Source: an uncultured Lachnospiraceae bacterium (GTDB taxonomy: Bacteria > Bacillota > Clostridia > Lachnospirales > Lachnospiraceae). From it: a stretch of 38,677 nt of DNA. The first letter of the stretch is position 1. Each line of letters opens with the position of its first letter. The stretch lies in the NCBI GenBank assembly GCA_902800325.1, contig CADCDW010000010.1, positions 1 through 38,677 of the forward strand. The letters are read 5' to 3'. The translations under genes were made by a program, and so were the position numbers. Below the pieces are notes generated by a model. It was not told where the DNA came from and did not search any database. It was given only the letters and a program-made list of their open reading frames with translations. Shown in pieces: positions 34,446 to 38,677 of the stretch.

Positions 34446-35345
34446 TCATTTAGTTTCTTTTAGACCTTCCATATCACTTAGTTTCTTTTTTCTTTTGGAT
34501 TTTTTTTCCTTACTTCGTTGTTCAGACTTATCCAATAGCCTGCCCATAAAGAAATTAATCTCAGCACCGTAAAACACAACCTGCATACACACATAAAGCC
34601 ACATCATTATAAGTATTATCGATGTAAGACTTCCGTACATATATGATGCATTTGAAAGATGTTTTATATAAAATGAAAAGCCATTGGTTATAAGCATCCA
34701 CAAAAGCGCCGCCATAGCCGCTCCCGGCAATTCTCTTATGAATTTACTTTTTCTGTTTGGAAGCTGATAATATATAAGCACCATAAATATAAGAACAACA
34801 ACAAATGTAAATACACTTTTTAAACTCAAAACCAGTATAGTCGCATTAAAAAGCGAAGGCCATCTATTGATAATACGCTTGGCAAGATCCGCACCAAAGA
34901 TATGAAGAATCATAAGAGCACCCATCATAATCATAAATACAAGTGTATAAATGACACTTAAAAATCTGACAAATATAAAATTTTTTCTTTTTTCAACCTC
35001 ATAAATCTTATCAAGACCATTTGTAAGTGCCTGAATCCCCTTGCCCGCCGACCAAAGTGTTACGACTATAGTAATAATAGTAAATGACCGGCTGTTGGAA
35101 TATACAATATCATTTACAATATACATAATGTATTCCTGAAATTCATCCGGAGCAATTTCAAGAATATAATTAATCATATCAGTATTTATGAAAGAAACCT
35201 TGGATGCGATTATTACTATAAACAAGATAACAGGAAAAAAAGATAAAATCACATAGAAAGCAGCCTGTGCCGCATAAGCAGCCAGACCATCATCGCCCGC
35301 TTTTTTAAAAAAATCACCCAAAAACCTAAAGAACTTTTTTATCAT
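34446..35345 (-). CDS. YihY/UPF0761 family membrane protein
   Basis: 299 residues from the ATG at 35345. A frame open to 35462 would add 39 residues, but they are encoded by the structured RNA gene and are unlike the family. The protein has six helices, and the conserved AAYAAQAAFYVILSFFPVILFI at the first helix and LWSAGKGIQALTNGLDKIYEVEKRKN in the middle identify the YihY/BrkB group. Its role is unknown; the old RNase BN assignment was withdrawn. A GAGGG site is only three bases from the ATG, a tight spacing. The C-terminus is a short basic tail (KEKKSKRKKK). Confidence 0.87.
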   Translation of the reverse strand: MIKKFFRFLGDFFKKAGDDGLAAYAAQAAFYVILSFFPVILFIVIIASKVSFINTDMINYILEIAPDEFQEYIMYIVNDIVYSNSRSFTIITIVVTLWSAGKGIQALTNGLDKIYEVEKRKNFIFVRFLSVIYTLVFMIMMGALMILHIFGADLAKRIINRWPSLFNATILVLSLKSVFTFVVVLIFMVLIYYQLPNRKSKFIRELPGAAMAALLWMLITNGFSFYIKHLSNASYMYGSLTSIILIMMWLYVCMQVVFYGAEINFFMGRLLDKSEQRSKEKKSKRKKKLSDMEGLKETK

Positions 35346-35350
35346 ATCCC

Positions 35351-35537
35351 TCAAAAATAATATATCCGGAGTGCCGTTTCCTGCCTTTTGACTCCTAGCA
35401 AGGCTAGGTGGGCAACCGCACATAGACTTCTGCCTTCCACCGATACGAGGCCTGACATCCATCTATGGATTAGGTATCCCGTTAAAAGTAAATGTAGGTT
35501 CAAAATTAACAGGAGTTTTCGCACACTCCAGATATAT
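35351..35537 (-). ncRNA. Structured non-coding RNA, about 180 nt (raiA-motif-like or 6S-like)
   Basis: The ends pair over 14 bp: 35524-35537 with 35360-35373 (one G-U). Inside are ACTCCT/AGGAGT (35511-35516 with 35391-35396), hairpin ATCCAT-AG-ATGGAT (35457-35470) and a composite stem GGTGGAAGGCA with TGCCCACC (35431-35441, 35407-35414). A T-rich tail (TTATTTTT) follows. It has its own good promoter, and the spurious N-terminus of yihY lies within it. Multi-branched shape and a sequence I recall as highly conserved in Clostridia favour raiA-motif RNA over rod-like 6S, but I cannot decide. Coordinates are the paired region plus tail; transcription may start near 35559. Confidence 0.6.
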
Positions 35538-35565
35538 GCAATTCGTATATTATTAATATAGCTTT

Positions 35566-35593
35566 ATTATACCATGTTTATTCATTTTTTCAA
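35566..35593 (-). promoter_or_regulatory. Promoter of the structured RNA
   Basis: TTGAAA (35588-35593), 16-base spacer, CATGGTATAAT with TATAAT at 35566-35571 (extended TGG). It would start the RNA about 20 bases before its closing stem. Confidence 0.7.
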
Positions 35594-35639
35594 GAGAAAA
35601 ATATGTTATTTCTTTACTCTGAAACTTGTAAAATATCAG

Positions 35640-35738
35640 CTACTTACCATCCGGAAAACTTGTAAAACATCCGCTCTCAACTTCAGGAAGACCATATTTT
35701 TCCTTTGCTTCTTTAATTGCTTTGAGCATAAAGCTCAT
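35640..35738 (-). pseudogene. Short ORF or gene relic after the SMI1/KNR4-like gene
   Basis: 32 codons, MSFMLKAIKEAKEKYGLPEVESGCFTSFPDGK and stop. The composition is that of a real protein (a helix followed by a loop). No ribosome site is adjacent; GGAGACG lies too far upstream. It begins 31 bases after the stop of the 512-residue gene and could be a fragment of a partner gene left after deletion. Not recognised. Confidence 0.3.
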
Positions 35739-35769: not shown

Positions 35770-37308
35770 CTATTCGTCCACTTCCATACCCTGTTTCTTA
35801 AGGCACTCTATAAGTGACTCCAGCAGCTCCTGTCCGTCATCAGTTCCAAGTATCGAACGGGAATCAACATATTCATCATCCGTAGCTATAACCTGAAAAA
35901 ATGGTTTCATCGTGATTCCCTTTATAATAAACTCGTATATTTTCTTTGGATTTTGCGTAAAATGATGCTTCCTTATGAAGCCGTTAAATTCCCTGTTGTA
36001 ATCCGAATCACGTTCCTCTTCAAATGCCTCCAAAAAAGCTTCCTCGGATTTTAATATATCGACATCACACAGATCATCTATGTATCCTCTGTATACCGCT
36101 ACGATATTCATGAACTCATTTATATTTCGTGCTATGATCCCGCATTCTCCCTCTGTACCAATATATCCGATCTTTTCATCATCCAGTACTGCCCATAATC
36201 CACCCACACCATCACGGGCAAAAGGCTTAATATTCTTATAACTGCATTCTCCCGGTCCCATCATTTCATCAAACCAGGATGTATCTTCCTCCATATCCTT
36301 TACCCCTGCCTCGTCATAGATTTCAATATCACAATCGAAGTAAAATGCATCCTTCAGGTCCATGTCATTATAGATTTCTTCCAGATAGTCCCGGACATCC
36401 TGAGGTAAAGCAGTATTACCATATGTTTCATGCCCATCCATAATATAATCAAATTCCTTATTATTTACTGAAATCGCGATCTTACCGTACAATTGCTGAA
36501 GATCAGTTCTCATGGCTTCGACTACTCCTGCATCTGTCATATCGTCGATCTGCATTTCCTCCATGTGCTTTCTCAGCAAAACATCCCTTACTACCGCATA
36601 CACGATCATGTCATAGCTGTAGTGCTTGAACTTTTTTGTAAAAATGCTTTTTCCTTTTTCCACGATTCTGACGACAAACTCTTTTTCATCCACTTCGACA
36701 AATACTTTGCCGTCCTGAGGGTTTTCAACATTTATATATTCTGCTTCTACTTTATCTGCACTTATATAACCCGGGTAAATCCTGTTAATCTTTATCGGCA
36801 CCCCTGTCTTAATACCATCTATTGCATCGATTTTGTAGATAATTTTTGCTTTTTCAAACAGATCCGTCAGATCCGGATATTCTTTTGATAAAACATCCAT
36901 ATTTCTCGCAAGCGGTAGTGCACTGTCTGATTTAATTTCTATTGCATGATCAATAAGCTCATTAAAGAGACTGAGCGTTTCATCTCTTCTATGCATACTT
37001 TGTGAAATCAGTGCGATCGCGTAATAATAACCCGGGGTATCCGGGATAAAATCCGTGTTTTTAAATGGATATTTCATCTCCTTTAGTGTATCCAGAACAG
37101 CATCGACTATCGCATCATCCTCGGCAAACACTGCCATTTTCTTATAATCTGCCGCCGTCCCCGGTGTTCGTGCATAAGTTGATAACCTTTTAACAAGCTT
37201 CCACACAGCTTCCTTCACATCATCAGACGCATGTTCCATCAAAGGCAGTGTCATCATCTTATGGCTATATTTCTTTAATTCTTCCTCACTTGGAATTTTT
37301 TTCTTCAT
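35770..37308 (-). CDS. 512-residue protein with a SMI1/KNR4-like C-terminal region
   Basis: A soluble acidic protein. Residues 1-165 are helical (DDVKEAVWKLVKRL, TPGYYYAIALISQSMHRRDETLSLFNELIDHA), like a helical-repeat segment. Residues about 165-300 are mixed (VPIKINRIYPGYISADKVEAEY, then FVVRIVEKGKSIF). Residues about 345-430 contain IKPFARDGVGGLWAVLDDEKIGYIGTEGECGIIARNINEFMNIV. That pattern is characteristic of the SMI1/KNR4 (SUKH) superfamily, widely used as immunity proteins against polymorphic toxins. I see no toxin gene beside it. The domain call is from pattern memory. AAGGAGG precedes the ATG. The AT-rich upstream region holds a 19-bp palindrome near a probable -10. Confidence 0.7.
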   Translation of the reverse strand: MKKKIPSEEELKKYSHKMMTLPLMEHASDDVKEAVWKLVKRLSTYARTPGTAADYKKMAVFAEDDAIVDAVLDTLKEMKYPFKNTDFIPDTPGYYYAIALISQSMHRRDETLSLFNELIDHAIEIKSDSALPLARNMDVLSKEYPDLTDLFEKAKIIYKIDAIDGIKTGVPIKINRIYPGYISADKVEAEYINVENPQDGKVFVEVDEKEFVVRIVEKGKSIFTKKFKHYSYDMIVYAVVRDVLLRKHMEEMQIDDMTDAGVVEAMRTDLQQLYGKIAISVNNKEFDYIMDGHETYGNTALPQDVRDYLEEIYNDMDLKDAFYFDCDIEIYDEAGVKDMEEDTSWFDEMMGPGECSYKNIKPFARDGVGGLWAVLDDEKIGYIGTEGECGIIARNINEFMNIVAVYRGYIDDLCDVDILKSEEAFLEAFEEERDSDYNREFNGFIRKHHFTQNPKKIYEFIIKGITMKPFFQVIATDDEYVDSRSILGTDDGQELLESLIECLKKQGMEVDE

Positions 37309-38291: not shown

Positions 38292-38677
38292 CTATTTTAT
38301 CTGCTTTCTTTTAAGTGTAAGATAAAGTGCAGCTAAGCATGAATCTATCATAAGCATAACGATTATGCCCATATTAATCTTATCTCCTGTTGTCGGAGCT
38401 TTTGGTGTATCTTTCTTTGATGTATCATTTTTAGTAGTTGGCGTATCTACCGTTGTTTGCTTATTCTCATTCTGTTTTGCCTTAGCTGATATCTCAAATG
38501 AAACTGTTACTTCGTCAGCATCATCAAACATCGCAGTAAGTGTATGTTCACCTGCCTCAAGAGTTTCGAGGAACGAAGATTTAAGCTTTATTATTACACT
38601 TCCTTTTATTTTTTCATAATTAGCAGCATCAACTGTCTTACCGTCAACCTTTACGCCTGCAAAATGGTCATATGTAG
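38292..38677 (-). CDS. C-terminal part of a cell-wall-anchored surface protein (partial, 5' end outside the window)
   Basis: The last ~128 residues. They start in a beta-sandwich domain (TYDHFAGVKVDGKTVDAANYEKIKGS...LKSSFLETLEAGEHTLTAMFDDADEVTVSF), the X2/CBM-like repeat typical of large Lachnospiraceae surface proteins. A low-complexity Lys/Thr/Asp linker (KKDTPKAPTT) follows, and then PTTGD, a hydrophobic helix of about 20 residues and KRKQIK. This is a sortase-type anchor with PTTG in place of LPxTG. The protein would be linked to the wall after sorting. Its full length and function lie outside the window. The ATG at 38531 is internal. Confidence 0.8.
   Translation of the reverse strand, partial: TYDHFAGVKVDGKTVDAANYEKIKGSVIIKLKSSFLETLEAGEHTLTAMFDDADEVTVSFEISAKAKQNENKQTTVDTPTTKNDTSKKDTPKAPTTGDKINMGIIVMLMIDSCLAALYLTLKRKQIK

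Follow-up and report, generated by a model that had tools for sequence, protein, structure and literature searches.

The window analyzed here, a 38,677-nucleotide stretch of DNA from an uncultured Lachnospiraceae bacterium (contig CADCDW010000010.1), carries a gene for a YihY/BrkB family membrane protein whose listed reading frame starts unusually far upstream. An initial annotation had proposed that an independent structured RNA gene occupies this region, naming 6S RNA and raiA-motif RNA as candidates and favoring the latter. The locus raises the question of which RNA, if any, is encoded there, and of how that RNA relates to the gene behind it. 6S RNA, a well-known small RNA, would be expected to dampen RNA polymerase as growth slows. 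Based on the analyses below, the RNA gene is almost certainly the single 6S RNA found in this genome, and it would cycle as other members of the 6S family do. Its identity, structure, promoter, and template site are all computed; by these it is an ordinary family member in a somewhat unusual location, adjoining the start of the next gene. The features of the locus, with the basis of each in parentheses, are:

35566..35593, minus strand: promoter of the sigma-A type, TTGAAA-16-TATAAT, with an extended -10 (scan; recurrence in the genus)
35538..35559, minus strand: predicted 5' leader, start near 35559 (inferred from the -10 spacing)
35359..35537, minus strand: 6S RNA core, RF00013 model positions 1-187 (cmscan; compensatory changes over 44 sequences)
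35520..35537, minus strand: closing stem, 5' arm (fold; covariation)
35481..35499, minus strand: central bubble, 5' strand, a mimic of an open promoter (unpaired in the fold; invariant bases)
35494..35507, plus strand: predicted pRNA, first 14 nt, copied from the 6S template (template motif in relatives; hallmarks)
35410..35480, minus strand: internal (apical) stem (covariation of helices 4-8; fold)
35394..35408, minus strand: small hairpin in the 3' strand of the central bubble (covariation of helix 9; fold)
35360..35376, minus strand: closing stem, 3' arm (fold; covariation)
35348..35358, minus strand: short U-rich stretch, then GAGGG, a possible Shine-Dalgarno sequence of yihY (sequence)
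34446..35345, minus strand: yihY, YihY/BrkB family membrane protein, with its proposed start (PF03631, TIGR00765; starts in relatives)

Identity and fold of the RNA

We used cmscan to compare the whole window with Rfam; this analysis identified a match to the 6S family (RF00013) on the minus strand from 35537 to 35359, with a score of 79.1 bits (threshold 46.4, E 3.8e-14) and spanning model positions 1-187, i.e., the full length of the model. 6S was the sole Rfam family above threshold in the window, and a covariance-model search of the whole genome returned this single 6S match. A permissive search of the RNA-bearing stretch alone gave four matches, with 6S again the only one above its own threshold. 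Plastid-psbA-3 (24 bits, threshold 48.4), isrA (14.7 bits, threshold 51), and EF0820_EF0821 (9.5 bits, threshold 442), all near the 6S RNA, scored below threshold, and we took them as chance. Counting the source genome, 58 of the 61 genomes in the relatives set have a 6S match (above the cut-off in 57), as do 113 of 120 genomes of the family (above it in 106); a 37th genome of the genus, G018, which is 80% complete, gave no 6S match.

The raiA-motif RNA (RF03072), called ModT in C. difficile (PMC11706538, excerpt), is likewise a structured RNA of Bacillota of about 200 nt, but the 6S locus has no sequence-structure match to the raiA model. Superficial likeness in size, clostridial host, and closing stem speaks for a raiA-motif RNA here, a reading to which we give next to no chance, as the 6S match covers the whole RNA and the raiA covariance model found nothing in the stretch at E values up to 10, nothing in the whole genome, where each of 40 candidates was scored, and nothing across 146 genomes from the order, in genome and order searches whose own control was silent (0 of 14 named genomes matched). 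A search of the class serves as the positive control: raiA matched 25 of 148 genomes, all 25 outside Lachnospirales, and the raiA negative therefore carries weight. The order and class searches ran with stricter filters and scored part of the first-look candidates of most genomes (at most ~15 per genome among the matches listed). The choice between two RNA families is thereby settled, to the extent that covariance models allow: the Infernal/Rfam check that the initial annotation had suggested placed the 6S model above threshold at the locus and left the raiA-motif model without a match, so that one of its two candidates stands, over the whole model, and the favored one does not.

The predicted fold of the 179-nt core has an energy of -63 kcal/mol; a 195-nt stretch folds at -65 kcal/mol, and none of 200 shuffles folded as well (z -4.2). 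In this fold, the closing stem comprises 17 pairs with one bulged base, slightly longer than the 14-bp end-to-end stem described previously, and the hairpin in the 3' strand of the bubble (35408-35394) comprises six pairs. The internal stems described with it are also present; however, they form one stacked rod with a single side hairpin rather than a multi-branched layout. Similarly, the length of ~180 nt given earlier fits the core, but not the transcript, which would be about 200 nt with a predicted leader of ~22 nt.

To count pairs, we aligned 44 of the 60 available 6S sequences (29 of 36 from the genus and 15 of 24 from others of the order); because the 16 sequences outside this alignment include several of the weakest scorers, the count leans towards good matches. 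Over 48 consensus pairs, 95.7% of cells held standard pairs, and both sides changed in 30 of the 48, compared with a shuffle mean of 15.7 and with 0 of 500 shuffles as high. The observed value was not reached by any of the 500 shuffles, which do not preserve relatedness, on any of five measures. Within the closing-stem helix, 10 of 16 consensus pairs changed on both sides. Structures slid along the alignment were only 35-45% paired, although the consensus structure was derived from the same 44 rows and is thus favored against slid versions. With all 60 sequences, 95.0% of cells were paired and both sides changed in 32 of 49 pairs; in the lowest row, 30 of the 49 pairs formed. Core positions C40, C41, A43, C44, and A45 were invariant in the 44 sequences. 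In these alignments, the predicted rod with its closing stem, open bubble, and internal stem is supported by compensatory change. Together with the full-length 6S match and the fold, the covariation bears out the earlier claim of an independent structured RNA gene.

Compared by way of the family model and features, the RNA has in common with B. subtilis 6S-1 and C. difficile RCd3 the rod, the central bubble, and the hairpin in the 3' strand of the bubble, as well as a sigma-A promoter and a pRNA template with GG and AA hallmarks. Whereas B. subtilis has two 6S genes (PMC7726162, excerpt), one copy was found here. Also in contrast to 6S-1 and RCd3, a coding gene lies here within 13 nt behind the 6S RNA. 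The helix that collapses the central bubble, as in B. subtilis 6S-1, was not seen in minimum-energy folds constrained to hold the pRNA site open, which is a crude test. The C. difficile 6S RNA has a sigma-A promoter before its mapped start and gives bands of ~200 and 175 nt (PMC3649979, excerpt), and that of C. acetobutylicum is strongly expressed, with three bands (PMC3879012, excerpt).

Promoter, predicted pRNA template, and predicted cycle

The promoter ahead of the 6S RNA, reported earlier with an extended -10, reads TTGAAA-16-TATAAT with TG ahead of the -10, matches the consensus at 11 of 12 positions, and ends at 35566. The promoter scan by itself was not significant (2 promoter-like sites vs. 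1.8 expected). A promoter with 11 of 12 matches precedes the 6S RNA at 29 of the 36 same-genus loci, among them the source locus, and the other 7 score 8 to 10; the distance from TATAAT to the core is 20-36 nt in 32 of the 36 genus loci with the box found. An AU hairpin had been suspected in the 5' leader; the leader alone folds at 0.0 kcal/mol. In nine loci with displayed upstream DNA, close relatives, judged by eye, differ for the most part until shortly upstream of the -35 and are similar from that point on; the pair G016 and G023, whose 6S sequences are identical, has slightly more upstream DNA in common.

Further upstream on the minus strand, a 16-base direct repeat, GATRTTTTACAAGTTT, occurs in two exact copies (35622-35637 and 35656-35671). 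With the pattern taken from the two copies themselves and up to two mismatches allowed, 4 of 100 window shuffles gave at least two matches; three more places in the whole genome matched at one mismatch, vs. 2 for the reversed control. By eye, the repeat is absent from the displayed upstream DNA of eight relatives. A 512-residue protein is encoded at 35770-37308, also on the minus strand; at E 0.001 it matches neither Pfam nor NCBIfam, and TBLASTN against the fetched 6S regions of 35 same-genus genomes, whose upstream flanks are short, gave no relative. On the same strand at 38292-38675, a gene cut by the window end encodes a protein end with PTTGD, a hydrophobic stretch, and a basic tail, possibly that of a cell-wall-anchored protein.

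The proposed pRNA start is core position C44 (window 35494), placed by alignment and possibly off by a few bases, and the pRNA predicted from the sequence is GUAGGUUCAAAAUU. It has GG at positions 4/5, AA at 9/10, and an A adjoining the start, which are hallmarks of known pRNAs (PMC8414754, excerpt). Of 60 sequences, 56 retain the template motif; it is missing from those of G019, G045, and G054 and from one of the two copies in G041. In the cycle as described, 6S RNA sits on the housekeeping polymerase until synthesis of a ~14-nt pRNA, with the 6S RNA as template, releases it (PMC8876501 and PMC8414754, both in excerpt). By homology, transcription from the sigma-A promoter would yield a ~200-nt transcript with a rod-like fold, whose open central bubble resembles melted promoter DNA; this RNA would bind the housekeeping RNA polymerase holoenzyme and keep it off promoters as growth slows. 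Once nucleotides are back, the polymerase would copy a short pRNA, with its predicted start GUAGGUUCAAAA at 35494, and the complex would dissociate. Polymerase binding, pRNA synthesis, and growth-phase control are here inferred from B. subtilis and E. coli.

The start of yihY and the genes downstream

The listed YihY frame begins at 35462, inside the 6S RNA. In the three closest named relatives (Lachnospiraceae assemblies), YihY is 78-85% identical and begins with MIKK, equal to M40 of the window's frame at 35345. The 39-residue N-terminal extension is most likely a spurious translation of the 6S RNA, and the true yihY start is likely the ATG at 35345; the RNA would account for the odd extension, as had been suggested. 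We consider it very improbable that the region is instead coding, either for an N-terminal part of YihY from 35462 or for a small protein of 57 residues. Both frames are open (the shorter from 35524 to 35351), and in 32 of 36 genus loci the frame equivalent to the extension has no stop codon in the final 105 nt of the 6S RNA. However, the frame of the next gene extends at least 60 nt back into the 6S RNA in only 11 of 36 loci, split over two phases (7 and 4 loci); in the other 25 that frame is closed. The openness therefore follows the conserved RNA and not the next gene. The genes so reached come from three families, the base pairs are kept by compensatory changes, the 57-residue frame has no Pfam family at E 0.001, and the MIKK start of the relatives also argues against an extended YihY. 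Taking the region as 6S RNA corrects the yihY gene model, which would otherwise carry 39 likely spurious residues.

In the source genome, 13 nt separate the 6S core from the yihY start. The three closest relatives have a long protein gene between the 6S RNA and yihY; a SpoIID domain was identified in both of the products scanned (779 residues each). A sequence search with the spoIID protein of G008 found it in that genome, G024, and G020, and found none in the source genome or in G006, G012, G003, and G013. Because the source assembly is a draft (145 contigs, 97.2% complete), the absence of spoIID from it is likely, not certain. Set against the close relatives (6S region L064 compared with window positions 35345-35359), the source lineage seems to have lost the spoIID-like gene that lies there between 6S RNA and yihY.

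Across the genus, the first query protein found behind the 6S RNA was co-directional with it in 36 of 36 loci: a spoIID-like gene in 26, yihY in 5, and glyA in 5. The offsets of these next genes were measured to where TBLASTN matches to six query proteins begin rather than to mapped start codons; by this measure, the next gene begins no more than 40 nt from the 6S end in 21 of the 36 loci. The order 6S-(spoIID)-yihY-glyA-ftsH recurs in most genus loci with sufficient fetched DNA. Exceptions are G012, G026, G029, and G032, where glyA and ftsH were not found behind yihY; G021, where yihY was not found between spoIID and glyA; and the five loci with glyA first, which gave no match to spoIID or yihY.

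In other genera of the family, the neighborhood was read at the best-scoring 29 of the 113 genomes with a 6S match. A relative of SpoIID (10 loci) or YihY (3 loci) is encoded co-directionally within 1.5 kb in 13 of the 29; in one locus YihY is encoded on the opposite strand, in G345 the relative found is one of FtsH and lies upstream, and the remaining loci had no such match, some of them on contigs that end early (at least two, G382 and G424, end before 1.5 kb behind the 6S RNA). Many of the 29 loci have a hairpin-like sequence right behind the 6S RNA, as judged by eye and uncounted. These loci point to a 6S gene that heads a conserved gene cluster in Lachnospiraceae. The 6S locus of lactic acid bacteria likewise has a lineage-conserved neighborhood, with other neighbor genes (rarA/uspA; PMC8414754, excerpt). 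In the literature searched, 6S RNA and Lachnospiraceae appeared together in a single mention, in a supplement legend; among the matches listed, there was literature on 6S RNA together with SpoIID or glyA and none on 6S RNA together with yihY. The downstream setting of this 6S RNA may be undescribed so far.

The 3' end and possible read-through into the next gene

The U-rich tail noted in the initial annotation is present but weak, consisting of AUUUUU followed by GAGGG. A terminator scan gave 3 terminator-like sites (0.4 expected), none of them at the 6S 3' end; of the same-strand sites, one lies in the 6S 5' arm (35529-35512) and one within yihY. Because the tail is weak and no terminator was found there, the 6S 3' end is uncertain.

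One further reading is compatible with the identification as 6S RNA, namely that the yihY mRNA has the 6S transcript as its 5' leader, with some polymerases reading past the 3' end and 6S processing then yielding both the small RNA and a translatable yihY message; we put the chances of this at even. The yihY ATG follows the core so closely that the two are nearly contiguous, the scans placed neither a promoter between the 6S promoter and yihY nor a terminator behind the 6S RNA, and across the genus the first gene found is always co-directional; none of the 21 loci where that gene begins within 40 nt shows a hairpin-plus-T terminator over the following 70 nt. Against this, a -10-like sequence within the 3' part of the 6S RNA, GATATATT, was seen by eye and may mark a promoter, and only 2 nt lie between the possible Shine-Dalgarno sequence of yihY and the ATG, a short spacing. 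Moreover, in 24 of 36 genus loci, half or more of the ten bases that follow the core are T, so the closing stem and U-run could themselves terminate transcription; 7 of the 36 loci, all among the other 15, have a separate hairpin terminator behind the 6S RNA. The 6S gene of lactic acid bacteria was judged monocistronic (PMC8414754, excerpt).

Given this setting, read-through into the next gene in the Lachnospiraceae genus, the source yihY included, is plausible. More tentatively, and with somewhat less than an even chance, the 6S RNA may often lack a terminator throughout the genus and form the 5' leader of a cluster of cell-envelope and one-carbon genes (spoIID-like, yihY, glyA, and ftsH), such that maturation of the RNA and expression of the next gene would be coupled; where the first gene is lost, as seems to be the case here, the next would move up to adjoin the 3' end of the RNA.

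If the transcript is read through, the locus would link a polymerase regulator to envelope genes and provide a Gram-positive parallel to ssrS-ygfA of E. coli, where the 6S gene likewise lies directly ahead of a protein gene and where termination, 3' processing of 6S RNA, and expression of the downstream ygfA have reportedly been studied. The downstream genes differ, being spoIID-like, yihY, and glyA here, with co-transcription putative. A second precedent for read-through is found in B. thuringiensis (Bacillus cereus group), where tandem 6S genes are co-transcribed as a precursor (PMC7726162, excerpt). Elsewhere in the same order as the source genome, locus L032 (G056:C13:340673-340848 and 340900-341075) has two tandem 6S matches ~50 nt apart, resembling the arrangement in the Bacillus cereus group (PMC7726162, excerpt).
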